From: Bryum argenteum
Taxonomy: Eukaryota; Streptophyta; Bryopsida; Bryales; Bryaceae
Assembly: GCA_037043015.1 (NCBI GenBank)
Contig: CM073327.1
Span: 11,948,727 to 12,012,726 of the forward strand
DNA: 64,000 nt
Reading direction: 5' to 3'
This document shows, in pieces, positions 2,752 through 36,099 of the stretch. The translations under genes and the position numbers were made by a program. A model generated the notes under the pieces. It had not been told where the DNA came from and did not search any database. It saw nothing but the letters and a program-made list of their open reading frames with translations. The stretch's first letter is position 1. Every line of letters begins with the position of its first letter.

Positions 2752-2951
2752 ATTTTATGAAGCACATATCACCATCAGTTGTCCTTCATCTTTTCTTGCT
2801 ATTTTATTGTAAGCACACTATCATTAGGTCTCCATATCTTTTGGTTGTAGTCTTATCGTGCACACACTACCATCAAGTATCTATCTCTTTTTGTTGTTAT
2901 TTTATCGTGCGCACATTACCATCAGGTGTTTTAACCTTTTGTTATTATTTT
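2752..2951 (+). repeat. ~49-bp tandem repeat, left part
   Basis: About four imperfect units of 48-50 bp share the pattern ATTTTATYGTG, then CACACTACCATCA, then a T-rich stretch. The same array resumes at 18316-18420. The last left unit (ending TATTGTGACA) joins the first right unit (CACTACCATCA) exactly in register, so both parts were one array before the 15.3-kb element inserted. Confidence 0.8.
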
Positions 2952-2960
2952 ATTGTGACA

Positions 2961-2994
2961 GGGGAAACCACCGGTGTGAGTGTTGAGCGGTGAG
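2961..2994 (+). repeat. MULE left terminal inverted repeat
   Basis: Begins GGGGAAACCACCG and continues into the 21-base block shared with the right end. It is followed by extra copies of GAGCGGT up to about 3020, a short internal tandem repeat absent from the right end. Confidence 0.8.
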
Positions 2995-3856
2995 CGGTGA
3001 GCGGTAAAGTTTGAGCGGTAAGGAAAAAAAAAAAAAATTAATGGCCCTATTACCATGGAATGGGTGGTTCTGAAAATTTGAAATGGTTATTTTTAGGCAT
3101 AAAGGTACCCAAAACCGTGGATATAGGTCCTTTATGCACTTCCTTACATGGTATTGGGGTCCTACAATATTTCATAAATAATCCACATTTGTAAGTTTAA
3201 ATAAAATTAAATTAAATTAGGGTAAACATCATCATATGTAACCCATACAATTCAAATCATATACTGGCCTCGTTCACTCAGAAATACAAAACTTAAACCG
3301 AAATCTTGGAGGGCTCATTAGGACATCAATAAATTTACTTTAATTATTTTAAAATTTATAGTATAATTAGGGCTGACGTCATCAATTTCCTATCTCACTT
3401 ATCAAACTTATATGTAAATGCTTCGGTATATATAATATAAAGTTTATAACTTCAAGTCGTCTTTTCGTGTCTCCTTGTAGTAGAAGGGCAGAAAGACATT
3501 CACGTGGCATTGTAGTGGTCCGAGTTCGATTCTCCTCGGGCTCGTTTGAGCGTTGCAGTGCGTCGTAAAGCAGCTATCCTGAGTTATACAAATACTGAAC
3601 TAGCTCCTCTACCAACATTGACTAGATTCAATTATTCCAATTGAAAATAAAGAAACGTTTTGAAACTTTTAGTTTGCATTGAGTTTAAAATTTAAACATT
3701 TCGATATAAATTACGAAAGCCTCAAACGTTCATGATAAATAGGTAAACGTCATATATAGATATAAAAACATATAATAAAACCACATATATGACTAATGCC
3801 GTAGGGCAACTATATGACCCTACGTAGTCCAAACCAAACCTGGAAAATAAAAACAC
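2995..3856. other. MULE left subterminal non-coding region
   Basis: AT-rich, no ORF of note. Around 3465-3545 there is a tRNA-like stretch with a box-B-like GAGTTCGATTCTC, possibly a decayed tRNA-derived insertion. 3717-3856 is the presumed 3' UTR of the minus-strand gene that ends at 3857. Confidence 0.5.
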
Positions 3857-6800
3857 CTAGGATGCTGATGGTGAACGACCATTAAAGTGTTGGTCACACT
3901 GATCAGCCTCATCGTCTATAAACGCAAGCACTCTCGAGCTAAAGCGTCGACGTCTACTACTGTCCGATAAGACGGGAGAAGGGGCAGCGACAAATTCCTG
4001 AGCTATCCGCTCCGCATAAGATGGTAGGGTGAAGGTTTGCGGAGGACTGCTGTAGACACTACTGTCGCCAATCAAGCGTCGATTGGAACCTGCGATCCTA
4101 AAAGTACAGAAAAAGTCAGTACCAATAAATTTCTAGCAAGTGAAGGTGACAGTAGAAGGGGGGGAAAGTAAGAGATAATTACGCACAAAATGTTGGGCGT
4201 TGCTTCTTCTGAAGCGGTTCAGAAGTGTCACTGTCGTAGTCATAAACTGGAACCGAATCGCCGCTTTCTTCCTCAAAAGCGGTACCATCCACGTATGCCG
4301 ATAGAAGTCCGTCAAATATCTCTTCATCAGCTTCAACAGCAATGAGATGACGGTTCGATCGCGCGCAGGCAATCACGGAAGCACCTACATACCAGCAACC
4401 AACATCAGAACTACAATATTGAAGAAGTTGAATGAGAGTTGGTGTTAGCAACAACTAACCTGTACTAGGGCTCCAGTCAAAGATGATTCCCCGCTCATCT
4501 GTGAGAGAATCAATGAAACATTGGATGATGGAGGGATCCTTCTCTCGCGAGCCACGCCACGGAGTACCATCTTCCTTCTTACGAATGGAGTCATTGCTCG
4601 CAAAATTGAAAACATGGTCCTCCTCGTCGGGAAGAATGGGTACACCTGCGTACTCTTTTGCAACCTGTCTTATGGAGAATCTGGTGGCAAAAGACTTCCG
4701 AACAAAGACCTTAATGTGGAAGTTGTGAGTCTGCAAAATTCAATAGATGAGAGAGATTTAAAAAACGTTGTAAATAATAATGAATGATGATTTGAATGCA
4801 GAATGAAGACCATACCGTTTTCACGTGGGGGTTCGTCGAGGCCATTGGCATCGGATTATATCCCCACCAATCTCGCACCATTCGGAATTCGAAAGCCTTC
4901 GACTCGGCATCCAGAGCTTTCTCGACTCGACGATCTTTGGGATGCATAACAAGTATCGCACCCTCGTCTGTCAAATTGTAGAAAGCAAAAAAGAACACAC
5001 TCTCGAAGTAGCTTTTCTCTCGCTTGTTCCATGAAGGGATATCGACGGGCGACACGTCAGGCACGGGTAAGTTCTCGGGAACGTCTGCGTAGATGAGATC
5101 AATGTCGGGATGCGGGTGTTTTGTGCCCATCTCCTTACATGGGTACTTCCTGTCCTTGCCAATCTTTAGAAATCACAAAAAGTTAGACATGTTGTAAACG
5201 ATATGTTCCAAACAGAATTTCAGAAATAAAAGAATGTAATAAGAGATTTAGGACATAATACCTTTCTGATGTGGTTAATGATGTCCATGACTTGCGTGTC
5301 CCAATCTTTTGTTTCATGAGCTGCCTTTTGAACAGAAGCTCCGATATCCCCTTTTTCCAAGTACATTGGGAGAGAAATAGTAATCTCAGAAGACAAGCAC
5401 TCTCCAACATGCTTCGGTTCAAGAAATGGGAGTGAAGCGAACTTCTTTCCGGAGCTGTGGTCGACAGTGACAGATTGAGGAGGGGACCCCCCATTCGTAA
5501 GAGCGCCTACAGAAATCTGAGTCAATGGTCGACCGCGTCTACCTGCATTGTTGGTCGCTCCATGTGAAGCCTGAGTCAAATCAGCTTCTTCTGGACTTGC
5601 AACGTCTTGATGGAGCGGACCGATTTCATCGGGTTCTTGATCTAGATCAACGACAGGCTCCGCAGCGGCGTTGCGTCGCTTTCTGTTTGCTCGGGTTCTA
5701 GGTTGTGCAACCGGTGAAGGAGGTTCGGAGGGTGAGACAAGTGCGCTTGGTAAAATGGAGACGTCTTCGTCGTCATCGTCATCGATCTCCATAGCTGCAT
5801 TGTCTGGTGCGTTCGAAGTGAGGTTCCGAAGCAGATGTCTCTCTTCCTTGTGCACAAAGATATCGTTGCACTCTAGAAACCAACCACCGGTCAGCAACTG
5901 TGAGTTGGAGAACCGTCTCTGTTGGACTTCGGAGAAGATGCTGAATGGATCATTTGAGACGGCTACATCCTCGAGCTCAGGTGGGATGGACCAGGAAGCC
6001 AAGGCTCCTTTGCCAACAAGCTCCTGTTTCAAGTACCTACAATGAAGAAAACATAGTACAATGACAAAATTCAGTATATCGTACTGATTTTGGTAATCAG
6101 CAAAATGAGTAGGAAATTGAAAAGCCAAGTGAATACATACCGGAATAAGAGCCGTTTAGTAGTAACCTTGCCACCAGTAAACTTCTGAATATCGGATCCT
6201 TTGATGAACTTGGGGCTGGCATTTTGAGCGAGGTAGTTCCCGAATGCTTTTTCACATAAAAACAATCTCCATTTCTCAACATACGCGGATGGCTTTAGTA
6301 CCGCATCCGTCCACTAAATGGAAATTCTGCCATCCTCCACAAGTTGTTGTATTGCACTTTCGAGGGATTGTTGGAACTGCATTTGAACCCGTTAGAAAAA
6401 GTAGATAGTGCATGACAGGAGTACATTAATGACAGAAGTTCAGTACAATATACCTGAGCCCAGAGAGAAGCGCGATGGAGAAAGGCAAGCAATGTTTTAT
6501 CCTTCATAGGGCGCTCTACTGGGAAGTGGACAGATCGACGAACATCATCTGGCGCATTCCACCATTGGAGCCACTTCCCCTTAAAATCGAAGTGGACATT
6601 GGTCGTGGCTACCATGTGCAACCGTTCGATTGTCATATCGGGCTTCAGGTTTTGGCTGTAGTGAGAGTAGATCTGCACATAGAACAAATCGAAGTAATTA
6701 ATTTAAGTATTAATCAATAACAGTATTGAGTCTCCTTAGAAACTAAGTAGACAAAATTATTTACCTCTTTCGGGAATACTTTCCCAAGTTGGTTGTTGGC

Positions 6801-9800
6801 CACAGCAACCATCTTGTCGAACTTTTTGTCACGGATAGATTTGATTTCCGCTTTGATGGCGTTATCCATGGCACTCCAAACTCCTGACCCTGTTTGCTTT
6901 TCTTTAGGGGTAGTGGCGTAGTAAGTAGCCTCGGCATGATCCAATGCTTTCGCTAACCTCCTCTACATGGCACAAAAGTAGTAGTAAGAAATTGTAATGA
7001 AATGAGTACAAGATAGAAGTGTTTAGTACGTATTAAGAAGTCTTACCGCGTATAAGAACTTGACGAAGACGTCCAGTGTGACAAGATACCATGTTTCTTT
7101 CTTTGCTTTAGCGTTTTTGCAAATTTGGTAATCCTCCGGGGTAATGAGATCCTTGAAATCTTCAAGTTTCAACTTACCGAACTTCCGCATGCGTTGCAAC
7201 TTCGCACATAAGCTGTCTTCGACGTGGTCATGTTCGGTAGACCTGTATAGCGGAAAAGTAGTCCTATATATGAGAATACGCCGAGGTTACAAGTATTTGG
7301 TATACAAATAAATCGAAAAAATGTTTGAAGTACTTACCAATTTATGTCATTCATGGCGTCAAGAAGGAGATTGCTTTGTCCGCGAGCATCGAGTACGATG
7401 CAATCAACTGAGATGTACCATGATGGATCCATCAGGTGGTACCTCTCTATGTGACGCATCCACGCCGTCAGACGGTGGTTTCCTTCGTATACATAGAAGT
7501 ATTTGCCACTGAGATGATGAAAATCAGGATCCGCCATCAAAGACTTCTCGAACTCTTCATTTGCATCTCTCCATAGCGGATTCTCCCACACACTGTCTCC
7601 TGCATCAACTTTTTTTTCTCTTCCTTTCCTATCGAATGGAGATACATACATTACCCGATCTCCTTCTCGATAACCTTTGTTGAACTCGTTCTCGAGTTTC
7701 CGCACGTCTTATTCGGAGATAGGCCGAACCTTTGGGTAACAAACCAAACGGCACAATGAAATTAGCATACGAGACTTCTTAACAGGTTTGAATCGGAACC
7801 TGTTGATGACTGCAATGGAATCACTTTTGTGAATCATCCGCATCTCGTTCGCACTCCAATCAGGATCTTTGTTTTGGAGATGGGGTGGCATGTGAACTAT
7901 GCCGACGTTGACACTCCCTGGCAAAGCAGAGTCTTCGTCATCCGAAGGGGACTCGTGTCCATCGGGATCTTACAAAGCCTCCGGAGAGGGCTCGGTGTCG
8001 ATAGGAGTATCACGCGGAACAGGAGAAGACATGTGTTCTTCAATTCCTTGTTGTACTGGTGCGCTATCATCTTCTTCAGGAACCGGACTTGACTGAAAGT
8101 TCTGAAGAGAGATGTCTTCTTCGTCTTGTAGAGATTGAAGCTCGGATATACTCATCTGAGAAAGGAAGAAACAAAATACAACACCAAACTGAAATCATAA
8201 GAATAAATCGGAATGGTACTAAAATATTAAATCATATATCAAGTCGATCATAATGTAGATAAATGATAGTACAATCAAGTAGTGTTATTTTAGAACTATA
8301 TAAATTTCAGCTTCGCCGCAAGTCGCGGTGACCGACGTGGTGTAATTAACTCTAGCAAATGCCTTAGCCTCATCTCTACGAGCTTTCGCTTGAATGTAAT
8401 AATTGCGCATGCGCTTCGCTCGTGCAACCCGATCAAAGTCATCACGTGAAGTGTGGCTGACACGTGGGGCAAGAGGCGGAGTTTCGGGAACCGAGGACAA
8501 TGGTATTACTAAACGCCGGGACTCTACATAAGCCAAGACATTCTCTCTCAAAACCGATAAGTCGCTGTCGGCATCAGATTCTTCCTCCTCAGGGACAACT
8601 TTAAGTGTCTTTAGGTCCTGCAAAGAACATTGAACATATTTATCACCGACAATTGCCAAACTATTGACATAAATAAATTAGATATAACTATCAATCAAAA
8701 AGCAAAAAATGCGTCCAGAATCAACATATCCAAATCAAAAAAGAGTACCGGTGCCACACTACAAAAACGGAAGCCACAGACTAGAAAATGGTAATCAAAA
8801 ATTCAAATGCAAACCAAGAGGGCCCTTATAGAAAACCAGAGATCTGCACTTCAGCAACGAGAAAGGGCCCCTTTTGAATGCATCCTGCCTCAGCAGTATC
8901 AGGCTTGCGGTGCCGCAGACAAGAAAGAAAGCCACATATCGGAAAATGATCATCAAAAATTAAAAGAAAAACACCGACAGGCTCTTCCTCGAGCATCCTA
9001 CCTCATTCGGTATTAGACTTGCGGTGCCGCAGACATGAAGGAAGAAAAAAATTAAAAAAAAGAAACCGACGGGCCCACTCCGAATGCATCCCAGCCTCAG
9101 TCTGTATAAGACTTGCGGTGCCGCAGACAAGAAGGAAGCACAGATCGAAGCGCAGTGCATCAAAAAAATGTAAAAAATAAATCCACGGGGTCCATCCGAA
9201 TGCATCCCTGCCTCAGTCTGGATTAGACTTGCGGTGCCGCAGACATGAAACGAAGCACAGATCGAAACAAGAGGAGCAAAAAATAAAAAAAACAAACCGA
9301 CGGGCCCACTCCGAATGCATCCCAGCCTCAGTCAGTATTAGACTTGCGGTGCCGCAGACAAGAAGGAAGCACAGATCGAAGCGCAGTGCATAAATAAATA
9401 TATAAAAAAAAACACGGACAGGCTCCTTCCTCGAGCATCCTGCCTCAATCGGTATTAGACTTGCGGTGCCGCAGACATGAAACGAAGCACAGATCGAAAC
9501 AAGAGCAGCAAAATTTATAAAAAAAATAAACTGACGGGCTCCATCCGAATGCATCCCTGCCTCAGTCGGTGTTAGACTTGCGGTGCCGCAGGCATGAAGG
9601 AAGCCCAGATCGAAACAAGAGGAGCAGAATATTAAAAAAAAGAAACCGACGGACTCCATCCGAATGCATCTTTGCCTCAGTCGGTGTTAGACTTGCGGTG
9701 CCGCAGACATGAAACGAAGCACATATCGAAACAAGAGGAGAAAAAAAAAAAAAAGAAACCGACGGGCTCCACTCCGAATGCATCCCTGCCTCAGTCTGGA

Positions 9801-12034
9801 TTAGACTTGCGGTGCCGCAGACATGAAACGAAGCACAGATCGAAACAAGAGGAGCAAATATTAAAAAATAACAAACCGACGGGCCCCCTCCGAATGCATC
9901 CCTGCCTCAGTCTGTATTAGACTTGCGGTACCACAGACAAGAAGGAAGCCCAGATCGAAACAAGAGCAGCAAAATTTATAAAAAAAAACCGATGGGCTCA
10001 TCCCGAAGGCATCTTGCCTCAGTCGGTATTAGACCTGCACTGCCGCAGACAAGAAGAAAGCACAGATCGAAGCGTAGTGCATCAAAAAAATGTAAAAAAT
10101 AAACCGACGGGCTCCATCCGAATGCATCCCTGCCTCGGTCGGTGTTAGACTTGCGGTGCAGCAGACATGAAGGAAGCCCAGATCGAAAAAATAGGAGCAA
10201 AAAATAAAAGAAAAAAAACCGACGGGCTCCATCCGAATGCATCCCTGCCTCAGTCTGGATTAGACTTGCGGTGCCGCAGACATGAAACGAAGCACAGATC
10301 GAAACAAGAGGAGCAAATAATAAAAAAAACAGACCGACGGGCCCCCTCCGAATGCATCCCTGCCTCAATCTGTATTAGACTTGTGGTGCCGCAGACAAGA
10401 AGGAAGCACAGACCGAAACAAGAGGAGCAAAAAATAAAAAAAAAGAAACCGACGGGCCCACTCTGAATGCATCCCAGCCTCAGTCTGTATTACACTTGCG
10501 GTGCCGCAGACAAGAAGGAAGCCCAGATCGAAACAAGAGCAGCAAAATTTATAAAAAAAAAACCGATGGGCTCATCCCGAAGGCATCTTGCCTCAGTCGG
10601 TATTAGAGCTGCGGTGCCGCAGACAAGAAGGAAGCACAGATCGAAGCCCAGTGCATCAAAAAAATGTAAAAAATAAACCGATGGGCTCCATCCGAATGCA
10701 TCCCTGCAACAATCGGTGTTAGACTTGCGGTGCCGCAGACATGAAGGAAGCCCAAATCGAAACAATAGGAGCAAAAAATTTAAAAAAAAAGAAACCGACG
10801 GGCTCCATCCGAAGGCATCCCTGCCTCAGTCTGGATTAGACTTGCGGTGCCGCAGACATGAAACGAAGCCCAGATCGAAACAAGAGGAGCAAAAAATAAA
10901 AAAAACGAAACCGACGGGCCCACTTCGAATGCATTCCAGCCTCAATCTGTATTAGACTTGCGGTGCCGCAGACAAGAAGGAAGCACAGATCGAAACAAGA
11001 GCAGCAAAATTTATAAATAAAAAACCGATGGGCTCATCCCGAAGGCATCCTGCCTCAGTCGGTATTAGACCTGCGGTGCCGCAGACAAGAAGGAAGCACA
11101 GATCGAAGCCCAGTGCATCAAAAAAATGTAAAAAATAAACCGACTAGTTCCATCCGAATGCATCCCTGCAACAGTCAGTGTTAGACTTGCGGTGCCGCAG
11201 ACATGAAAGGAAGCACAATTCGAAACGTAGAGCATAAAAAAATATAAAAAAAAATCACGGACAGGCTCCTTCCTCGAGCACCCTGCCTCAGTATGGATTA
11301 GACTTGCGGTGCCGCAGACAATAATGGACGCACAGATCGAAACAAGAGCAGCAAAATTTATTTAAAAAAAAAACCGATGGGCTCCTCCCGAAGGCATCCT
11401 GCCTCAGTCAGAATTAGACTTGCGGTGGAGCAGACAAGAAGGAAGCACAGATCGAAACAAGAGGAGCAAAAAATAAAAAAATAACACCGACGGGCTCCAT
11501 CCGAATGCATCCCTGCTTCAGTCTGTATTAGACTTGCGGTGCCGCAGACATGAAACGAAGCACAGATCGAAACAAGAGCAGCAAACATATGAAAACAAAA
11601 ACCGACAAGCTCCTTCCTCGAGCATCCTGCCTCAGTCGGTATTAGACTTGCGGTGCCGCAGACAAGACGGGAAGCGCAGATCGAAAATTGACAATCAAAA
11701 ATTCAAACGCAAACCTCGAAGGCCCGGCCCGAAATCCATCATGCCGCAGTCATTTACGGACTTGCGGTGCCCAGGTCAAGAAATGAAGCAACAGATCAGA
11801 AGTTCACTATCAACAAGGGCCATTTAGGTTAGAAATTCTAACCTTGAAATTGCGGGAGTACCATCTCTCCAACTCTGAGCGCGTCTTGACTGCTTCGCCA
11901 TGAGCGTAGCGATGACATCTGTAAAACTCGGCAAACAAACTGGAATCCGAATCTGAACTCACATTCTCTAAAGTTGTGTTCACGTCCTCTCCTCCATGGA
12001 CCATCGCCACTTCTTCTTCCACAGAGTTCGCCAT
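3857..12034 (-). pseudogene. ParB-like / DNA methyltransferase-like gene on the MULE
   Basis: Twelve exons can be spliced on the minus strand: 12034-11843, 8617-8351, 8155-7338, 7242-7047, 6962-6765, 6672-6454, 6376-6141, 6036-5262, 5163-4816, 4730-4460, 4384-4183, 4097-3857. All use GT-AG, all phases agree, and the total of 3963 nt closes at a TAG (1320 codons). The donor at 8350 is the least certain. Visible parts, in order: an acidic N-terminus; around residue 378, EGNHRLTAW, the signature of ParB/sulfiredoxin-like domains; an aspartate-rich stretch, then GRRGRPLTQ, an AT-hook-like motif (exon 8); DIDLIYADVPEN at about residue 990, in the place of the DPPY motif IV of N6/N4 DNA methyltransferases; and IIFDWSPSTGASVIACARS at about 1167, in the place of the AdoMet-binding motif I. 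Motif IV before motif I is the beta-class order. In-frame stops at 7970-7972, 7709-7711 and 6314-6316 indicate a dead copy or readthrough. Catalytic residues are altered (DVPE for DPPY). Confidence 0.65.
8751..11806. repeat. ~115-bp satellite array, about 26 units, inside intron 1
   Basis: Units repeat every 113-117 bp and are marked by GACTTGCGGTGCCGCAGAC, seen near 8902, 9015, 9109, 9225, 9341, 9458, 9575, 9689, 9804, 9919, 10032 and so on to 11758. The core contains the inverted pair TGCGG/CCGCA. Most units also carry CACAGATCGAA (a GATC site), an A-rich spacer and CCGACGGGCTCCATCCGAA. Edge units (8751-8890 and 11690-11806) are diverged and share a different spacer (AATCAAAAATTCAAA). Unit subtypes recur in order about every 4-5 units, a higher-order repeat. 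The array fills most of the 3.2-kb intron between exons 1 and 2 of the ParB/methyltransferase-like gene. Confidence 0.9.
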
Positions 12035-12354
12035 GTCTCCTTCCTCCTCTCGATCTGCTTCTGCTTCCTTCACACTCTACGGAACAAAATGTTTCAAAAA
12101 CTTCAAGTTTCACACACTCCTTCTTCTGGATGCAAAAGTTCGTCATACTATTCTTGACGTACATAGCTGTCCTCAAATTCTCACTACAGTGCTTCCTACT
12201 CTCCCTTCCTAATTTAGGACCTGCCAAAGCTGCTCCATCAATCCAGGAAGGCCTAATCGTTCGAATGCCAACTAGGGTTTTGGCTGCCATCGCGGCCATC
12301 CTCCTGTCCCGCCGCTCGCCACTCTGCAAGACTCCGAGCCGACTGAGCAGCGCT

Positions 12355-12545
12355 TACCTACCCGGCCTCTACTCCCCCACAGATACCCGGCCCGGCACCG
12401 GCTCCTCAATGGCCCAGAACCGGCACCGGCCCGGCGTCGGCACCTCACCGGCCCGGCACCGGCACTGCCAATCAAATCTATACCGGCCTCACCAATACCG
12501 GTCGGGCCAGCACCGACGGACACGGGACCGCTAACAGTACCGGTC
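12355..12545. repeat. GC-rich CCGGC low-complexity tract
   Basis: Irregular repeats of CACCGGCCCGG and ACCGG lie just upstream of the methyltransferase-like gene start (12034, minus strand). This may be a promoter CpG-rich tract or simple-sequence expansion; no ORF here is credible. Confidence 0.6.
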
Positions 12546-12758
12546 TCGCCACAACACACTAATTTTTAGTTACTAATAACTCCAATTAAGAAAATTAAAT
12601 AAATACAAATTATGTATGTTCTGAAAATAATACAAATACAAATTAAACAAGTACAAACTTGGGACCCCCAAGTACGAACTTGGGACCCGTAATTTATTAC
12701 TCAGTACGGGGTTCATATATTTTATGAAACCCTCTTAAATACATATGAAAAGTCAACA

Positions 12759-13522
12759 CTACTTCATATTGAAGAAAGGACTCTCATTGATTGTATACTT
12801 AATCAACCCTAAGTCCTCCCAGTAAACGAGGAAGTAGGGTTTCTCATGTACCTCCTCTAATTCTTCGACACTTGGCTCAAATTCATCCGCAACGTCATTC
12901 TGTGTCCCGTGCTGAGAAGAGGCTTCTGCTCTCTCGCCCATATCAGTGACTCTTTTTTCTTCAAAAGTTTTTGCTTCATCTCCAGATCCATATTCTTCCT
13001 CTTCCAATCTTTTGCGATGCTGAAGTCAACACATGGTGTTATTATTCCATATACATATTCCAGAATATGTTGAGCTTTACGAACAATTTCGAACAAACAC
13101 TATTTTATTACCTCATGTGTAGAGTCCACACCTCCATCGTCATCCCCATCCGCACAAACTGTCTCGCTTGACGTCCTGAACTGCCCTCTACTCCTTTCCT
13201 CTTCCTCTTCTTCAGCTTCGTCAGTCCCGACACTCTCCGGGACACTGTCGAGGTTGAGCGAACGCATTTTGATAGTCCGCCTGAATGGTGGTAGCACATC
13301 ATCGTCGATCAAGATATCGTACCCGTCTGGCTCGTGATCATCGCCGCTAGAGCTTCTCCCATCGCGCCTCCGCATAGCACTACGCCTCTGTGTTTTAGAA
13401 TTAGTGAACTTTGTTCCACCCCTCCGCTTCTTCTTTCTCTGACCTATCTCCTTTCCTCTCTCACTACCGCTAGCGGTTTCGTCCATGCCGCTTGCAATGA
13501 GATAACTTTTCACACGTTCCAC
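12759..13522 (-). CDS. Small acidic protein of unknown function, MULE cargo
   Basis: Two exons, 13522-13112 and 13019-12759, joined by a phase-0 GT-AG intron, give 224 codons ending in TAG. The frame is open a little above 13522 without an ATG. The first ATG inside it is at 13484-13486, so either translation starts there or a 5' exon is missing. An acceptor-like TTTGCAG lies at about 13541-13547. The protein has a basic patch (KKKRRGG, RRSAMRRR), then long glutamate/aspartate runs (EEEEEE; EPSVEELEEVHE) and ends in an aromatic-rich tail. It has no stop codons or shifts, unlike its two neighbours. It lies divergent from the transposase and upstream of the methyltransferase-like gene. The composition suggests a nuclear or chromatin-associated protein, but I do not recognise a family. 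Confidence 0.5.
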
Positions 13523-14010
13523 TAAACGAGTCCAAGTGTTCTCACTGCAAATGAAGAGGTTGAACTATGATTTTCAACTCCATTATATAAGTTCCCCCAT
13601 GCGGCTAGGAAACCCTAATCAGCCAACGCGTATTCCCTAACATCCCGCTATCACCGTCTCTGACAATCCAAAATAAGTTAACTTCTGAACGCATCTATTA
13701 TCCAACTAAATCTCTGACAATGACTGCCGCCGTCACTTTACCTTCTCCACCTACTTATTTTATCGACGGATCTCATATTTTTAATCGTGACTACTTAATG
13801 CAATTCCGTCAGTCCAGATATTTTAAGTATTATAAGTAATGTGCTTTTAAATGATCCTGCTCACGATTAAGAGTATCGGGTATATATACGTTTTATTATA
13901 AGAAATTACGTTCAATAAGTATTCAATACGTATGCAAACACCCTACACCAATTTCTTGTATTTGAACATTCGAAACGCACCTCAGACTCTCTTTCTCCGC
14001 GCACTTGTTG
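13523..14010. promoter_or_regulatory. Divergent promoter region of MULE genes
   Basis: A 490-bp interval between the starts of the acidic-protein gene (-) and the transposase (+). It has TATATAA-like sequences near 13585 (reading minus) and TATATATACG near 13881-13890 (reading plus). Inferred from gene orientation, with no experimental support. Confidence 0.35.
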
Positions 14011-17000
14011 ATGTTGTCTTTCTCGCCTTCGTCTATCATGGCATCCTCCGCTCCCCTGCCTCCCGCTGCAGACGTTATTGCCATTAGATCTGAAGACTTA
14101 AGTCCTCCCATCTGCATTCCTCCGGGGGTGGATGGTGTGGCTGAAGTCACTCCGTCTTGGCTAGCAATTCGTTTCGGGTTTGATGAGTCCTCTCTTTGGT
14201 TAGAGAAACATATCTTGGATCCAAACACTAATCTTGTTAGGTACTCTGTCCTTGTCGAACCAGTCGACCTAGAGAGTAACTGTAGAATGTATAAGCTACA
14301 GCCCGGACAGTATCGACTGTTCGGCTTGACAGAGTCTGTCATGAACGCCTCCACCGTCCTCCTTACTCCTCGTAGTTCTTCTTCCATCTTCAATGTTATT
14401 CCAGTTTATCCTCGTGTCAAGGTCGAACCCGGACTCGAAGTCCGAATTGATATTTCTGATTCATCCGACGATGAAAGAAAAGCGTCCATCCAGTCCCGTC
14501 GACTATCATCGAATCTGCCCCCCCCTTCGTCTCGTTCTGAACACAGTCTCAGAACCACCCCCGTTTCTCTTCCCGCTTCCAAAGTCGAAAAACATAAAAA
14601 CATTCTTTCCTCGCTCCGTAGACTAGGTAGCATGTCTCGCAACAAAACTATACTCAAAAAAATAGATTTCCATTCCATTCGTACTCACAGCGTATCTTTC
14701 CTACCTCCCACTTTCAACGGTGATGTCCTGTACATTCTCCCTCCCGTTCTACCAACTACTGCTGTCAAGGTAGCCAAATCTATGGAAGGGATGGACAAAA
14801 GATACGACGGTCATGTGTGGACCAGGACAATGACTACTAACATTAGTAACAACCTCGGTTTGTCTTTCCGCTACTCTAACTGTGTAGGTCATCTTCAATG
14901 CCACAATGAGAACTGCGGCTTCTTGCTACGACCTAACCGTAGAGCTCAAGTGAATGAAGTGGAGTTCGAGGGCTTCACCAAGGACCCCTTCCCTGTCGGC
15001 GATGCGCCTCCTCCTTCTTCTACACTCGTCTATAAGATCTGCAAAGAACCTCCCGTTTGTGTTGCTCTATGCCCTTCTAAAATATTTTACGTATTCGGAG
15101 AGGAGAGTCAAGAGCGGGCGTGTGTGCATATCGGTATGCACGAACATCCTGTCAAGGTCGGAGACTACAGATGCGCACGTAAAATAATTGATGAGTTAAT
15201 AGAGGAGCACGTAGAACATAACCTACAAGCTACCACTTCCAAAATAGTCATGGGGGCAAGCAAGGACTTACTCGGAAACTTACTTCTCCGTGAAGAAGGT
15301 GACCCTGTAACCTCCAAGCTCACCCTCCAAGAGCTAGAACCTATCTTCGATCAATGTAAGGAGCTGAACTCTCCCAGCGTCAGAAATCATATTACCACTT
15401 TTAAGCACTTGCGCAGATACGGTGTTCTTGATGGGATCACCAAGCTTCGCGGCCTCAGCAACTAGGCTTACATCCAACGTAACCAATTCCCGGCCAAGGA
15501 GATGAAAGTGACAAAGTGTTCATTTTCAAGATGTCTGAGGTCGGCCCCGGAAGCGGTGTTGACCTTGTTCGTCGTATGCAGCCCCGAGGCGACCTGTCCC
15601 ACGCGTGGTTGATGTTCGACCACGTCAAGCGTGTCAAGAACTGGACCACCATGGCGTGCCACGTTTATGACTCAAAAATCTGCCGCATTCTAACTATTGT
15701 ATGCTGTGATTTCCAGTCTGAAGACGGATAAGCTCAGATCGTCTTCTGGAAAAACCTAAACCACGTCATGGGCAGGAACGGAGTGGAAGCGCCGCACTTT
15801 CAAGGGTTCATGGCTGACAGTGCGCAAGCCAACTGGAACGCTGTGCGGATCATTTACGGCTCCGGAGACCCTAAAGTGCCTATGGAAGGCCGCGAGCAGT
15901 GACTACTTCCATTGGACGCAATCCCTAGAGAAACACACTAAACAATACATCGTGCACGAGCTGCAGGATCAACATCGACATCTTTGTAAGCAATACAAAG
16001 ATGCACGCACCATAGCTCAGGCAGAGACAAGATATTCGGCGATCCGAGCATGGTGGGCGTCGGCGCAGGCCACTTCCGACGTTGGATTAGGTCATCTCGA
16101 ACACTGGCTTGCATTCTGGCACTTCCGATATAGGCAGTGGGGTGGCTTCATGGAATTGGTGAGTCCACACTCATTGTAGCAATTATGTACATGTGCATGT
16201 ATGTCTAGTAACTCTGAAAAATTTATTTACCCGTTTTAGTAAAGAATATTCTGCTTATTTGAATTTTATCAGTAACAATTATTTTTTTTTATTTTTTTTT
16301 AAAATCTATTTTTAGATCAGCCTTGCGGTGCAGCAAGTCTAACCCGCTCTAGATATCGTGATCAACTTCTTTTGTTACTAAGTCAAAAGTCTTTGCACCT
16401 TGCAGGAAAATAAATATTCTGCGGAGGAGCTGGCGGAGATGCCTTCATGTAACCTTGCGGAATCTATCCATAACAAATGGTTGCAAGCGTCCAGCAAGAA
16501 GGGTGGGGACTTGTACGTTGCAGCTGTTGATGATTATGTTCGTGCTTTCCTCCAAGTTGTGGGTTACCACGACTTCAACTGAGGTGGTAAGGGTGGTAAT
16601 GGACCAACATCCGAAGAACTATTACTTCGTGTTGCCCATAAAGCTCAACGAACTGGCGATCCATCAGGCCTCACAAAGGCAGTTTCTGAATATCCATGAG
16701 CTGAAAATATTTGTACCCGCGACGCCCACCTTGAGGGGGCCGAGGTGTTCGGATCCAAGAAACGTAAGGCTGATGTTCCAATTGGAGCTGATGATAAAAC
16801 GCACAGACCTGACACCGTGAGCTACTCACGTCCTCGAATTGGGAGAAGGGTTACCCGAGCTTGTGCTGAAAATCTTAGTACTATCCATGAAGAGGATGAA
16901 GTTGAGGAGCCACCGACAATACCATCCACTTTTGCTGGACCTAGTATTGAACGTGTGACCGATGTTCAAGAGACTAAAGTAGACAAGAGGCTGTGGCACA

Positions 17001-17845
17001 TTGCCCGTTTGAGGGAGAATTCTGCCAAGGCTTGTTGGGGTATCATGCGAAAGAGTAAAAAAATATGTGACTTACGAATTATTCAGAAGGGGAAGGCGAC
17101 CGCAGCTCCAACTTACACCGGAGTATGGCAACGCCCTCAAGAGGGGCCAAGAAAGATTGATCAGTTTTTTTTTTGTGCGGATGATATTGATAGGTGTGTG
17201 AAGGGTCATCATCGCAAGTGGATTGAGCCATTCTCTCTAAGCGAGGATAGACCCCCTATTCCTTCAATATGGCCTGTTAAGATAGGGACTAACCTTACAC
17301 GTGATGAGATGGAGGCGTTAGAGAATGCGGGCTTCCGACTACCCCAAAAAGAACAGCTTCCTACGAACCGCACATTCAATAATGCTGCCCCACCCAGAGA
17401 CTTGTCCCATATTCCAGTCCCGAAGAAGCCGGACGTGTTCCCTAGGTCAAGAAGATCGAAGAACATGAAACGCATTCCAGCTATGACTTCAAAGCACATG
17501 AAGAATATTGAGTCTGCCACCTCAATGCAGGCCAAAATTCTGAAGGTGACCATCATCCCGCAGCCCGGATTTGGATGTATCGTAGACTTGGAGTCGGATT
17601 CGGATGCAGTTTATAGACTTTCAATTAGTAAATTCCCGGATTGCTCATGCCCAGTGTTCAAGAAAACAATTTCTTCGTTAGGACGGAGAGATCCATACCG
17701 ACCGTGCAAGCACCTATACTTCATCACGGTATTGGTTTGCAAATTTGATCCGGACGCTGACCTCTTTATCCACGCGGCTACTCTTAGTTTCAACGAGGTG
17801 AAGAAGATTTTGGAGGGTGGAATCCTAGACCATGCTACAGATTAG
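14011..17845 (+). pseudogene. MULE transposase with zinc finger and SWIM domain, six lesions
   Basis: Coding sequence runs from the ATG at 14011 (or 14038, better context) to 16158, then a GT-AG intron 16159-16405, then 16406-17845 ending TAG. Parts in order: a variable N-terminus; YDGHVW then CVGHLQC and GMHEHP (14803-15150), a C2H2-type GCM1/WRKY-like DNA-binding finger; the catalytic region with MACHVYDSK, CDFQSEDG, FMADSAQANWNAV and FHWTQSLEKHTKQYI (15640-15960); and a SWIM finger CSC...CKH at 17642-17713. The catalytic aspartates are visible, but I did not assign the glutamate. Lesions: TAG at 15463, a one-base loss near 15508, TAA at 15729, TGA plus frameshift near 15900, TGA at 16580 and TGA at 16697. 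Each time the family reading resumes, so this was an intact transposase that has decayed. Confidence 0.8.
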
Positions 17846-18271
17846 AATGCATTAAATCTTCTCATCTACATACGCTATATGTTAGTCCTATGATTGTGTG
17901 CTTCACACTCTATGTGATATTTTTTTCACAACTGATTAAAAATATGTATACCAGTACCTACATGTACTGCAAACCTTGCCAATTTGTCTTACTTGGAGTA
18001 CTAAACACTTAGAAACATTACCTTAGAAACCTCTTGACATTTACAAATTGTGATTTATTGTCGAGTTTTGAGCTCAAGTCTAACCAACTTCAGGGAATTT
18101 GAACCTTATTTCCACGGGTTTGGGTCCCTAAATCCACGGTAATAAGTCTAGAATATTCGAATATTCTCGAGAATATTCGGGAATAATTCCCTAATAAAAA
18201 TAGTATACTATTTTTAGAATTTTTTATACTAAAAATACAAAGTCAGCCATAAAAATTCTGAAATCTTACCA
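17846..18271. other. MULE right subterminal non-coding region
   Basis: AT-rich 3' flank of the transposase. An imperfect palindrome built from GAATATTC lies at about 18150-18190. No ORF. Confidence 0.5.
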
Positions 18272-18305
18272 CTCACCGCTCAACACTCACACGGTAGCAA
18301 CGTCC
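18272..18305 (-). repeat. MULE right terminal inverted repeat
   Basis: Reverse complement reads GGACGTTGCTACC followed by the same 21-base block as the left end. The 10-bp TSD TATTGTGACA abuts it at 18306-18315. Confidence 0.8.
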
Positions 18306-18315
18306 TATTGTGACA

Positions 18316-18782: not shown

Positions 18783-19066
18783 CCACTAGTACAATTTGAG
18801 GGGGTTTGCAACGTTTTCTTCTCAAACGTTGCTCAAGTCTAGCAACGTTTTGGAACTTGCTTGAGCAACGTTCTCAAGAAAATAAGCAACGTTATCTGAT
18901 CACCGTTATCTGATCACCAAGTAACGTTATTTATAATCTAATTGAGAACGTTGCTTATTTTCTTGAGAACGTTGCTCAAGCAAGTTCTAAAACGTTGCTA
19001 GACTTGAGCAACGTTTACTCAAATGCAACGTTTGTGGCATTGCAAACCCCCCTTCTTTCTAGTAGT
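18783..19066. mobile_element. Foldback MITE with repeated AACGTT
   Basis: The two halves are near-perfect inverted copies around a centre at about 18925. The outer ends read CACTAGTACAATTTGAGGGGG and, in reverse, CTACTAGAAAGAAGGGGGG followed by TTTGCAA. The hexamer AACGTT recurs many times on both arms (for example CAACGTTTT, GAGCAACGTTCTC). No ORF. It interrupts the coding remnant around it. Confidence 0.7.
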
Positions 19067-24418: not shown

Positions 24419-26995
24419 ATGGCGAAAGGTGGTGTGACTGCACTTGTTCTGCTCCAGCTGCTGCTGCTGCGCTTTTCGCAGTGTCACGTCCAGGCAGCAA
24501 GCATGCACCGTGATCTCTTGGGTTCGAATACTATGGTAAGATTGTCAACATCAGTCCATCCCCATGCATGCATGCTACCGACTGAGTTCATCATCGGTGC
24601 TGGATAGTACCTCTAGATTTTAAATGTGATGTGAGTTGGCAGATTATGCTCCAATACATTCTGAATGAAACGATTGGATTGCATCGTATTCGAATTCGGC
24701 TATTGTCTTGCTGTATGGCAGATGGTATTCAACCTCAAAAGTATACCTCGAGGTATCTTTCGAAAGAAAAGATGAACCTTAAAAGAGAAAGTAGGCATGC
24801 TTAACCTGATTTGATTGAGAGTTTCTAGGATTATCATTTTTATCTTGCGTTATTGATTGTTGCTGTGGTGGTGGCAGGTGGTGAGAGGCTCTTTGAAGGC
24901 CAGAGACAGTGGGAGCAATACGACAGCAAGTGAGAGACTCTTAGCAGCTGCAAAACGAAGCCTACTACGAGCCACGCAAGTGGAAAAGAATCTGCGAGCA
25001 CATATAGGAGGAGGGTCGACCGTGCATACAGACGCCACAGACGCCCAAAGCCCCGTTGTGTCGGCCGGACCGGAATACATCATGACGATCGGCCTCGGCA
25101 CACCGGCGAAGCAATTTGTGGTCATCGCTGACACCGGCAGCGACTTGAATTGGGTCCAATGCACCCCATGCACCAGTTGCTCCAAGGGAGTCAACCCTCC
25201 TTTCAACCCTTCTTCCTCGAGCACCTACAAGCTGAGCACCTGCAGCGATCCTTTGTGTCAGGTACGTGAACACCATTGCATTGCACTGACTGATCACAAA
25301 AGCACTTTTTCATCGTCCTACAATTGCAATATTTACGTCAAGAATCTTCCAAACACACCAATTTTATGTCTAAAACTACAAGTATCTTGATGAGATTTGA
25401 TCTAGTAAAGAACATATCTCTAACGAGACTATCTAACAAGATTTTGGGAAAGTGTCATCGGTTTCAGGAGTATGCCTTGTGAGTGCTAGTAAAAAGTAAC
25501 ATAACGTAATTCAACTTAGCTTAACTCAAATGAGGCAATGCCTAGGTGAGTGCCAGAAAAACCACATTGAAGAGCTAGAACGTTTTAGAATGTTCTCTAA
25601 ATATTGTTACTTTCTTGAACGTGTTGTTATGCAAACTTATTTCAAACTAGTTGCTGAAAAATGAGTTCCAAACTTCTAGAGACTCCTTTGAGACAAGAGT
25701 ATAGATGAACTTGTCTGTTCGATTTAGAACATAAAAACTCAAGACCTTCGGTTTTGGAATACTAAATCATTCTAAACATGTGTCACATTCACATGGATAT
25801 TTGGTATAGGCCCTTTACTCAAGGACTTGCAGCACGAGAAACACTTGTCAGTATTCATACAGTTATGGCGATGGTTCCAACACACAAGGAGATTTGGCTT
25901 ATGAGACGATGACGTTAGGGAACACAGCAATCCCGCGTGTGGGTTTTGGTTGTGGAAACAACAATAAACAACAAGGCTCCACACTACCGTGGGATGGGCT
26001 TGTGGGCTTAGGCCAGGGCCCCCTCTCGTTGCCCTCGCAACTCAGCCCCTCCATCCCCAAAGTCTTCTCCTACTGCTTGACTTCCCGCGGTTCCTCAAAG
26101 AACTCCTCCATCATTTTTGGGAACTCTGCCCTCAATACCAATGTAAGTACAAATTTCAAAAACTAATTGTGCACAATTTATCCTCTCAAAAACCAACACC
26201 AATTTGGTTTTGAGATTCATTCATATCTAAATATGTGTGTTTTCAACTTGCTTACAATGGTTATGGAAAGAGGTAACTACTTAGTTGACTTCTATAAAGT
26301 AAGCACAATCATTGCAAGTAAGACTCTTGTGTTGTTTGATTTGAGTACTTCCAATGGATTTTTCTTGACAATGTAAAATTGAGGTTTTGTTAAAAAAAAA
26401 TGAGGTTATTACTTTTATCTTTTTTCCTCAGATGATTTCTTTTATGTGGCACTAGGTGAAATACACGCCGTTGGTGGTTAATTCTTTGGCTCCATCTGCC
26501 CCATATTATTACATCGAGGTGACGGGGATCAGTGTTGGTGGACGCGCCATATCTTATCCATCCTCAGCCCTACAGATAGATAGCAATGGCATGGGTGGGA
26601 CCATAATGGATTCGGGTACCACTCTAACGTTATTAACACAATCGGTTCTCAATCCCATCCTAGCAGCTATCCGGCAACAAGTCAAGTACCCCGAATCAAG
26701 CTATGTTCCACCAGGTTGGGCCTTGTGCTACAACACCGCGGGTGTTCCAACATCAAGTCTGACATTCCCATCAATGGTGATCAAAATGAAGAATAACCTT
26801 GACTATCTTGTTCCTCCAGAAAACTTATTCGTACCTATTGACAACAGAGGTAGTAGATATTGTCTTTCAATGGCAAGTAGTAACTCGCTATCCATATCCA
26901 TCATTGGGAACATCCAACAACAAAATATCCTTCTCGTGCATGACTTGGTTAATAAGCGCATTGGCTATCAAGCAAAGCAATGTGATAAGATGTAA
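24419..26995 (+). CDS. Nepenthesin-like aspartic protease (family A1)
   Basis: Four exons, 24419-24535, 24878-25261, 25810-26142 and 26456-26995, all phase 0 with GT-AG introns, encode 457 residues. Residues 1 to about 27 form a secretory signal peptide (MAKGGVTALVLLQLLLLRFS). A propeptide of about 80 residues follows, then the two-lobed pepsin fold: first catalytic site ADTGSDLNW (Asp near 124), the plant-specific insertion CTPCTSC in the nepenthesin cysteine-rich loop, the flap region YSYGDGS, and the second site IMDSGTTL (Asp near 330). The C-terminus NIQQQNILLVHDLVNKRIGY is typical of the family. Both catalytic aspartates and the cysteines are present, so it should be an active, secreted or vacuolar endopeptidase. 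The start was chosen as the first ATG, in good context (ACCATGG). No operon-like context is expected; neighbours are unrelated. Confidence 0.9.
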
Positions 26996-33519: not shown

Positions 33520-36099
33520 CTAGTAACCGTAACCTGATGCGTCCATGGGGTTGCCTCCTGTTGGCACCTGCATCTCCTCCTTGATCTCGGTCACTACCAC
33601 ATCGGATGTCAAGAAGATCTTGGCTACCGAGGCAGCATGCTCCAGGCAGCACCTCACCACCTGCATCGAAATCACAATACAAAACCATCAGCTCCAGAAA
33701 CAAGGCCCTTCATTGTACAATAAAAACAGGATTAGTTCCAAAGTCGAGGAAAGGATTGCATGTTATGGTAAAAGCTTACCTTAGCGGGGTCAATGATACC
33801 AGCGACCATCAGGTCCTCATAGACACCAGTGGCAGCGTTGTAGCCGAAGGATGGGTTGTCGTTTGCCAACACCTGGTGATCAGAAAAACCAAAATCAATA
33901 CCCCTGAGATACAAAAGACATTCATGATGGAACAGATCCAGAAAGGATTCAAACTGAATTGTAAACCAGAACAAGGAACCGGAAACCCACCTTCTCAACC
34001 ACAACACTTCCGTTTACGCCGGCATTCTTGGCGATCAACTTCAGAGGGTAGCACAAAGCGCGCCTCACAATCTCTGAGCCAACCTGCAAATCAAAGAATA
34101 TAAAAAATCAGCAACTTGCATGAGGGAGGCTTGCCAGTTGCATACTTAAGAGGACTGCGATAGATGTGGTTGGGAATAATGATTTGTGCTGACCTTCTGT
34201 TCGTCGTTGTCGAGGGTAGCCTTGATAGCATCAACTTTGCTGGCTAATCTCAAGAGGGTGCAGCCACCACCAACAACAATGCCTTCCTCAACGGCGGCCT
34301 TGGTGGCATTAAGCGCATCCTCAACACGGAGCTTCTTCTCCTTCAACTCGGTTTCTGTCTGGGCACCAACTTGGATAATGGCCACACCACCAGATAGCTT
34401 AGCAATGCGCTCATTCAACTTCTCCCTCTCGTAGTCTTGCTCGGCAATTTCAATCAAGTTCCGAATCTGGGTCACACGCTTGTTGACAGCGTCTTGCGTG
34501 CTGCCGTCACCCACGATGGTGGTTGCGTCCTTGGTGATGCTCACCTTCGCGGCCGTGCCGAGCACCTCGGTACCGACCTTGTCCAACGCCAAACCAATCT
34601 CATCGCGGATCACAGTTCCGTTAGTCAGAATAGCGATGTCGTCCAAGTACTGGCTCTTCCTCTCTCCGAACCCGGGTGCCTTCAAGGCAGCCACCTTCAA
34701 TGAACCGCGAAGCTTGTTGACGACGAGCGTGGAGAGCGCCTCCTGCTCGATGTCCTCGGCGATGATCAAGAGTGGGAATCCGCCACGGATCGTCTCCTCC
34801 AAGATTCCGATCATGTCACGGGCAGTGGTGATCTTCTTGTCAACCAAAAGCAACTGCAGGAGGACAACTAGAGTTAGTACGGGCCTTCGATTCCAGAAGT
34901 TTGAAGGAAGTTTCGAAAGGGGAGGTGCAGACCTTGCAGTTGTCGTAGTCGACGGACATCTTCTCAGGGTCGGTGACGAAGTAAGGTGAGATGTAGCCGC
35001 GGTCGAATTGCATGCCCTCAACAACATACAAGTTGTTCTCGGCGCTCTTTCCTTCTTCCAGGGTCACCACACCTCTGCGTCCCACCTTGGCCATAGCTTC
35101 GGCAATCATCTGTCCGACCTCTGGGTTGTTGCCGGCACTCACAGCGGCGACATCCGCCAACTCACTGTCCTCAACCTGTCACCACAATAATAAACAAGAT
35201 AAGAATCAAAGAATTGAAGGAGAGGATAAGAATAAAACAAGTTAGTGAGGGGGTCGGTCGTGAGATGGCTACCTCCTTGGACAGCTTCTTCAACTCCTTG
35301 ACGAGAGCCACGACAGTCTTGTCAATTCCGCGAGTAATTTGCACGGGGTTAGCTCCGGCAGCAACCACCTTGACACCCTCGGCAATCAGTCCTTGCGCAA
35401 GCACAACGGAAGTCGTGGTTCCATCACCAGCCAAGTCGTTCGTCTTGGCAGCAGCCTGACGAACCAACTTCGCACCAATGTTCTCCACTGCATCCTCAAG
35501 CTCAACCTAAGAACACCAAAACACACGTCAATTACACCACTCCAATGACGCGCAGGGCCAAATGTCTACTCACCATTCAGGATTTACATGGCAGAAGGGA
35601 GAATAATCACTTTTACTCACCTCCTTGGCCACAGTCACACCATCGTTCACAATCTTCGGCGACCCGTACTTGCTCTCCAACACAACATTGCGCCCCTTGG
35701 GACCCAATGTAACACCGACGAGATCCGCAAGCTTGTCAACTCCCGCCTGCGCACAGAAGCCCGAACTTTAATGACCAAAAAATGACCAAAAATTGTAATA
35801 AGAACCCACAGAATGTTACGAGAAACCACAAATTGCAATAAGCACCCACAAAATGTAATGGGAACCGGAATTGCGGGCAGAATCCGGACCTGCATTCTCT
35901 TGATAGCCGAGCCATCCTTGTTGAAGTGAAGCTCCTTGGCGGCCTTCACCACAGTGGAGGAGCGGCGGGTGCTGGGAGCAACGCGAGCAGGGCGGAAGGC
36001 AACGCGGCTGATGGCAGCGGAAGAGCTCAAGGAGGCCTTGTCCACGACTCGGAGAGAGCCAGTGGAGGAGCCCGCCATAGCCATGGTTGAGGCAGCCAT
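33520..36099 (-). CDS. CPN60B: Plastid chaperonin 60 subunit beta
   Basis: Eight exons on the minus strand: 36099-35890, 35746-35621, 35506-35273, 35175-34933, 34853-34194, 34083-33991, 33872-33780, 33660-33520. All phase 0, total 1800 nt, 599 residues, the usual length of the family. The first ~50 residues are a serine/arginine-rich plastid transit peptide. The mature protein shows the group I chaperonin ATP-site motifs [13 protein letters not shown] and [16 protein letters not shown], the apical-domain stretch [15 protein letters not shown] and the intermediate-domain [12 protein letters not shown]. The C-terminus is the beta-type [12 protein letters not shown] rather than a GGM tail. It folds imported and plastid-made proteins, including Rubisco large subunits, as a tetradecamer with CPN60 alpha and CPN20/CPN10. 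No lesions. Confidence 0.97.

Follow-up and report, generated by a model that had tools for sequence, protein, structure and literature searches.

A transposon gene of Bryum argenteum that joins a ParB-like region to a methyltransferase-like domain beside a conserved palindrome array

A stretch of 64,000 nucleotides from Bryum argenteum (assembly GCA_037043015.1, contig CM073327.1, positions 11,948,727 to 12,012,726 of the forward strand; hereafter the window) raises the question of what a gene with two domains of bacterial type, one ParB-like and one resembling a DNA methyltransferase, does inside a plant DNA transposon. A sequence-only reading of this locus had proposed a single gene of twelve exons, a DNA modification gene of bacterial or phage type captured by a plant Mutator-like element (MULE), which could act on the chromatin of the element. 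The answer tentatively favoured here is that ten of these exons form an accessory gene, A2, of a MULE-like DNA transposon, and that its product would serve mainly as a sequence-specific DNA-binding protein which loads on a palindrome array and counteracts silencing.

Gene A2 lies on the minus strand at 3857..8155, from an ATG at 8155 to an end at 3857, and corresponds to exons 3-12 of the earlier frame, whose numbering is kept below (8155-7338, 7242-7047, 6962-6765, 6672-6454, 6376-6141, 6036-5262, 5163-4816, 4730-4460, 4384-4183 and 4097-3857). The model rests on splicing and on splice sites compared with other copies, which were sought in the host genome (258.8 Mb, 25 contigs), and two borders have been corrected, namely the start of exon 7 (6376) and the donor of exon 11 (4183). 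GNHRLTAW, GRRGRPL, IYADVPEN and DWSPSTGASV do occur in one spliced frame and in that order, as had been described. Intact copies, which it had been proposed to seek, are also present in the same genome. Uninterrupted A2 has been found in two of the 21 copies read, L031 (1,168 codons) and L040; a third, L034, is free of internal stops, yet its ATG is missing from the expected place and so is one acceptor, and the remaining 18 are interrupted, incomplete or both, with three in-frame stops in the window copy. Besides the window copy, ten copies of 20 kb and ten loci of 4.4 kb make up the 21; they were selected because they matched well and are no random sample.

A search with exon 9 gave 150 matches among the best 150 scored of 952 candidates, with identities from 100% to 68%, and by manual count 131 of the 150 are free of stops. 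Between L031 and L040, where 802 of 1160 aligned residues are identical (69%), the nonsynonymous and synonymous rates are dN 0.210 and dS 1.769 (dN/dS 0.119), and the ratio is 0.122 for L031-L034 and 0.140 for L040-L034, figures to be read with dS close to saturation in L031-L040 and L031-L034 and with several 100-codon windows giving no defined dS. These substitution ratios show A2 to be a gene under purifying selection. Since at least 150 exon-9 matches occur, most of them stop-free, and dN/dS is 0.12-0.14, A2 is more than a set of chance motifs; that explanation is rejected by these two observations and by the methyltransferase profile matches given below. The host genome contains four or more diverged families of this gene. 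Two copies are mosaic: in L035 the ParB part is 52% identical to L031 and exon 9 is 86% identical to the window, and in L039 the ParB part is 59% and the methyltransferase part 87% identical to L031, a pattern which suggests recombination between element families.

The methyltransferase-like domain has been placed at 4183..5163 on the minus strand, with a motif IV-like DVPE in exon 9, a motif X-like REKDPS and a motif I-like FDWSPST in exon 10, motif I being completed in exon 11. The window copy matches the Pfam family N6_N4_Mtase (PF01555) with an E value of 0.0097, and the best match of the element's family, that of L031, reaches 19.6 bits (E 9.2e-4), under the cut-off of 26.7; at E<=10 the profile matches three of six members of that family. 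Across the whole host genome 15 matches were obtained at E<=1, two of them above the cut-off. A sister family (L041, L043 and L044) is located at 20.498 Mb on contig C4 and at 9.878 Mb on contig C7, and L041 (together with L043), one of those two matches, is homologous to A2 along much of its length, though diverged. On a single contiguous exon L041 reaches 28 bits, over the cut-off, and 31.8 bits (E 1.7e-7) when two exons are joined manually, both matches spanning profile positions 163-215 of 221 only. It also matches methyltransferase families of PHROG with E values down to 1.8e-10, and a tblastn search with L041 returned 251 phage records at E<=0.1 with identity under 60%; among the matches listed, all 20 phage records are annotated as DNA methylase or methyltransferase. 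A profile built from four families, A7, matches CcrM across positions 11-222 of its 229 (E 1.5e-6) and DpnA across positions 166-224, the last quarter only (E 3.6e-7). The motifs follow one another in the order IV, X, I, colinear with CcrM, which is the arrangement of the beta class and agrees with the claim that motif IV precedes motif I. On these comparisons the C-terminal domain of A2 is homologous to beta-order amino-methyltransferases. A further PF01555 match, at 18.443 Mb on contig C5 (L045), reads by eye as something else and has been set aside. The host genome also holds matches to C5 DNA methylase, and searches for relatives of A2 in viral contigs gave no result.

Whether this domain still catalyses is a separate matter. 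The catalytic motif IV of beta-class amino-methyltransferases is (D/N/S)PP(Y/F/W). In A2 the corresponding motif has neither the second proline nor the aromatic residue, being D[VA]PE in the six rows aligned from families 1 and 2, DVPD in two further copies (c3_6.4 and c1_22.1), DIPE in L042 and DVSE in one broken copy; it is DTPF in the sister family of L041. Motif I reads D..[AP]STGA across the four families, with its first glycine replaced, and the motif X-like EK...F.Q is invariant among them. With D[VA]P[ED] as motif IV throughout the element's family, catalysis is doubtful, and a working N6/N4 methyltransferase, on which the proposal of a DNA-modification gene had depended, is not supported; the sister family may keep the activity.

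The ParB/sulfiredoxin-like region lies in exon 3, at 7338..7918 on the minus strand (the limits chosen for modelling), and contains GNHRLTAW. An AlphaFold2 model of its equivalent in L031 has a predicted local distance difference test score (pLDDT) of 75.3 and a predicted template modelling score (pTM) of 0.70, and the result rows of a Foldseek search with this model are filled by proteins of the ParB/sulfiredoxin (Srx) superfamily, none of them under E 0.001; a protein of phage Vincenzo labelled DNA methylase stands at rank 9. The model thus supports a ParB/sulfiredoxin fold for the N-terminal part of A2, as had been claimed. The feature of ParB proper seen in the sequence is the GNHR-type motif. 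Profile searches of PDB with the ParB alignments gave no match, and short-pattern searches of viral contigs and bacterial genomes found no relative of this part. Capture from a phage or bacterium is conjectural: these searches, and one of phages that gave three records at E 9, found no relative of the ParB part, and the gene occurs in at least four diverged families of the host genome.

The candidate binding site for such a protein is a tandem array at 9046..11686 (plus strand), identified by repeat finding and motif counts, with a unit of 115 bp in 22.9 copies and the hyphenated palindrome TGCGG-TG-CCGCA. It lies between the exons of gene A1, in an intron of that gene, and upstream of the transposase gene. 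The palindrome occurs there in 20 exact instances; if two mismatches are tolerated, the interval from 8860 to 11800 has 25. The sole further site in the element is at 16324, and none is found at the ends. At 16317-16343, within the transposase gene region, a one-mismatch palindrome lies next to an inverted fragment of the array unit. Motif-independent repeat finding in other copies has detected arrays of 14.7, 6.0, 7.6 and 43.8 units whose consensus holds the exact palindrome. It is missing from the arrays of c6_15.9, c1_10.4 and c10_0.1 (3, 4 and 7 mismatches), the consensus of c1_10.4 having a similar motif in inverted form, and for c3_0.67, c2_11.9, c3_6.4 and c1_22.1 repeat finding listed no array. 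When units of the window and six copies were anchored on the motif, 11-12 of the 12 core positions were common, compared with 20-47 of 72 flanking positions; this anchoring, which tolerated two mismatches at most, overstates the conservation of the motif itself, and flank conservation is understated because the flanks were compared ungapped. Shuffled 12-mers gave a mean of 0.0-0.2 matches in the five arrays tested, with single shuffles reaching 14. An exact 19-mer has 45 occurrences in the genome. They form six clusters, of which five fall in copies already read, and the sixth, at 16.022 Mb on contig C6, is about 16 kb from a transposase match; the reversed 19-mer, used as a control, has no occurrence. 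The non-coding stretch between the genes thus holds a conserved hyphenated-palindrome array in this family (family 1), that is, a conserved short motif in tandem repeats of non-coding parts of the element, as is the case for VANC-type systems.

The location of these features inside a transposon, also part of the original proposal, is borne out. The element spans 2961..18305 (about 15.3 kb), bounded by the limits of similarity to better preserved copies, by its ends and by its target-site duplication: the sequence common to ten other copies begins at 2961 and in the better preserved ones ends at 18305/6. The duplication is an exact 10 bp, TATTGTGACA, at 2951..2960 on the left and 18306..18315 on the right, and copy c7_12.04 likewise shows an exact 10-bp duplication, judged by eye. 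Imperfect terminal inverted repeats lie at 2961..3012 (plus strand) and 18255..18305 (minus strand), with approximate inner bounds, and include arms of 28 nt each (2974-3001 and 18265-18292) that are 93% complementary. A transposase-like gene with a SWIM-like C-terminus, recognised from its open reading frames (ORFs) and interrupted in the window copy, occupies 13966..17845 on the plus strand; in other copies its frames are open up to 803 amino acids. A divergent transposase match lies within 20 kb of at least 42 of the 150 exon-9 places (at least 48 in any orientation), or at least 34 of 119 and at least 8 of 31 by identity group, against 0.985 and 0.24 under random placement (maxima 4 and 2); the counts are lower bounds because 150 of 1075 transposase candidates were scored. 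MULEs are marked by target-site duplications of 8-11 bp and terminal inverted repeats, and the 10-bp duplication and inverted ends of the element fit this description. The label of MULE holds to that extent, and we presume it from the length of the duplication and from sequence motifs; Pfam found no MULE transposase profile among the transposase pieces, where SWIM appeared at E 0.58, below the cut-off. The element is inserted where a flanking 49-bp tandem repeat (2722-2957) ends. Just outside the element, at 18824-19016, an inverted repeat with 73-nt arms, 97% complementary and 47 nt apart, is possibly a small insertion resembling a miniature inverted-repeat transposable element. ORFs in the flanks at 34146-35063 (minus strand) and 24857-26995 (plus strand) resemble what we take to be host chaperonin-60 and aspartyl protease, respectively.

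The other gene of the element, A1, accounts for the first two exons of the twelve-exon frame. While the open stretches and plausible splice sites of that frame stand, its 1320-codon whole has been rejected: exons 1-2 (12034-11843 and 8617 to about 8285) belong to a separate gene with a conserved stop, and exons 3-12 belong to one gene. The last exon of A1 lies at 8285..8617 on the minus strand, its end being approximate in the window copy; the other copies have a stop at the equivalent place, with TAG at one position in 10 of 10 other aligned copies after a PRRSPRLAAK-like reading (in the local frame only), and in one family-2 copy A1 terminates in PRRSPRLAAKSKSK followed by the stop. Immediately ahead of this position there is a 4-nt length difference in the window copy, which is why the twelve exons seemed to join there. 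The earlier exon, at 11843..12034 (minus strand), is drawn from ORFs and comparison with copies, and probable further exons upstream, at 13564-13100 and near 13025-12759 on the same strand, have been placed by eye only. The basic KKKRRGGT-type ORF at 13100-13564 (minus strand) has a counterpart in the family-2 element L048 and is probably the first exon of A1. Pfam searches found no domain in A1, and in A2 none beyond N6_N4_Mtase.

Fusions of ParB-like and N6/N4 methyltransferase domains are a known general type in phages and bacteria. A2 resembles them in having both domains in one protein, and differs from them in its eukaryotic introns, long linker, degraded motif IV and location in a transposon, as well as in a ParB part that matched just three phage records, at E 9. 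With CcrM and DpnA, beta-class adenine methyltransferases (6pbd, 5hfj), the likeness is the colinearity with CcrM from motif IV through motif I, whereas in A2 the catalytic DPPY is replaced and the motif I glycine changed; the comparison supports descent of A2 from an N6/N4 methyltransferase, outside the catalytic definition of these enzymes. Like the bdelloid N4CMT and the N4-methylcytosine (4mC) methyltransferase of Marchantia, A2 is a eukaryotic gene of bacterial amino-methyltransferase kind. According to the bdelloid study those two are active host genes, N4CMT carrying a chromodomain and the Marchantia enzyme no extra domains (PMC8885841); A2, in contrast, is transposon-borne, ParB-fused and probably inactive. 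Among transposon proteins, mudrB of maize MuDR is likewise the second gene of a MULE (PMC6446971), and in the window element the genes are divergent. The VANC proteins of Arabidopsis VANDAL MULEs are encoded by transposon accessory genes, bind motifs within tandem repeats, both intronic ones and those upstream of the transposase gene (PMC5735166), and remove silencing (PMC5735166, PMC10398659). A2 shares with them the conserved short motif in tandem repeats; its site is a hyphenated palindrome and the sole Pfam domain in A2 and A1 is N6_N4_Mtase, the two systems being set apart here by Pfam domains only. As for mudrB, we know of no domain link to A2. Among the titles and abstract openings listed by literature searches, none describes a transposon gene with the ParB-like and methyltransferase-like combination.

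Several explanations of A2 have to be weighed against these data. That the resemblances are superficial, small motifs in an unrelated fold, is very improbable. It could draw on a narrower six-row profile (also designated A1, and distinct from the gene), which matched only dynein light chains in PDB (E 0.022), on a pLDDT of 43 for the model of the methyltransferase part, for which the query was an L041 read-through including intron letters, on the silence of Pfam ParB_N, and on the Foldseek E values. It is opposed by the matches of profile A7 to DpnA and CcrM, by the 251 phage records with their uniform annotation, and by the ParB/Srx proteins that fill the fold search. A captured passenger gene without function, in the manner of Pack-MULEs, is scarcely credible: the small share of uninterrupted copies would suit it, and it is contradicted and rejected by the full-length dN/dS and by the retention of A2 in families that share 69% protein identity, as well as in others more remote. 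It is also unlikely that A2 is an active N6-adenine or N4-cytosine DNA methyltransferase marking the DNA of the element, with target specificity given by the ParB-like part. The invariance of the motif X-like and motif I-like sequences, the sister family L041/L044 above the Pfam cut-off with motif IV DTPF, and the functional 4mC enzymes of bacterial type reported from bdelloid rotifers and the liverwort Marchantia (PMC8885841) speak for activity, but the altered motif IV (D[VA]PE, DVPD or DIPE) and the replaced glycine of motif I speak against it.

A role in transposition itself, comparable to that of mudrB, in which A2 would bind the ends or the array and help the transposase complex or integration, is a possibility of rather low probability. 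The divergent linkage of A2 to transposase and the known accessory MULE genes mudrB, vanB and vanC (PMC6446971) are consistent with it, but apart from the site at 16324 the palindrome is restricted to the internal array and does not occur at the ends. In the reading tentatively favoured here, A2 would act mainly by binding DNA at specific sequences: its ParB-like part would load on the element's own array, its methyltransferase-derived part would assist as a DNA- or S-adenosylmethionine (SAM)-binding module, and the loaded protein would keep the region open or counteract silencing, as VANC does on VANDAL repeats with other domains. By analogy, A2 is perhaps an anti-silencing protein like Arabidopsis VANC, built from different parts. 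Several points weigh against this reading. The identity of the array-binding protein is something we infer, and A1 or the transposase could be the binder instead; most of the A2 copies read are broken; Pfam ParB_N has no host-genome match at E<=1; and in the family-2 element L048 no palindrome was found in the 3.5 kb read, a stretch ending about 1.3 kb short of the transposase match and having another repeat (L048:1582-1720, 45 bp in 3.1 copies), so that the palindrome is not common to all families with A2.

VANC is one of the few known cases of DNA-transposon accessory proteins fighting host silencing, and A2 looks like a new kind of transposon helper protein: it is abundant, conserved over large divergence and present in intact copies, it unites two bacterial-type domains, and about 20 repeats of a candidate binding site accompany it. 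Few amino-methyltransferase-type domains of bacterial kind are known in eukaryotes, and A2 extends this small set with a lineage carried by a transposon; the bdelloid study found no homologs of its enzyme in eukaryotes and mentions a single further case, Marchantia (PMC8885841). A bolder form of the proposal, which we regard as improbable at present, is a transposon system resembling ParB/parS, in which a protein combining a ParB fold with a retired DNA methyltransferase would load on the roughly 20 palindromes beside the transposase gene, spread along the element and keep silencing marks off. If true, it would represent a new class of eukaryotic DNA-binding regulator made from bacterial parts.

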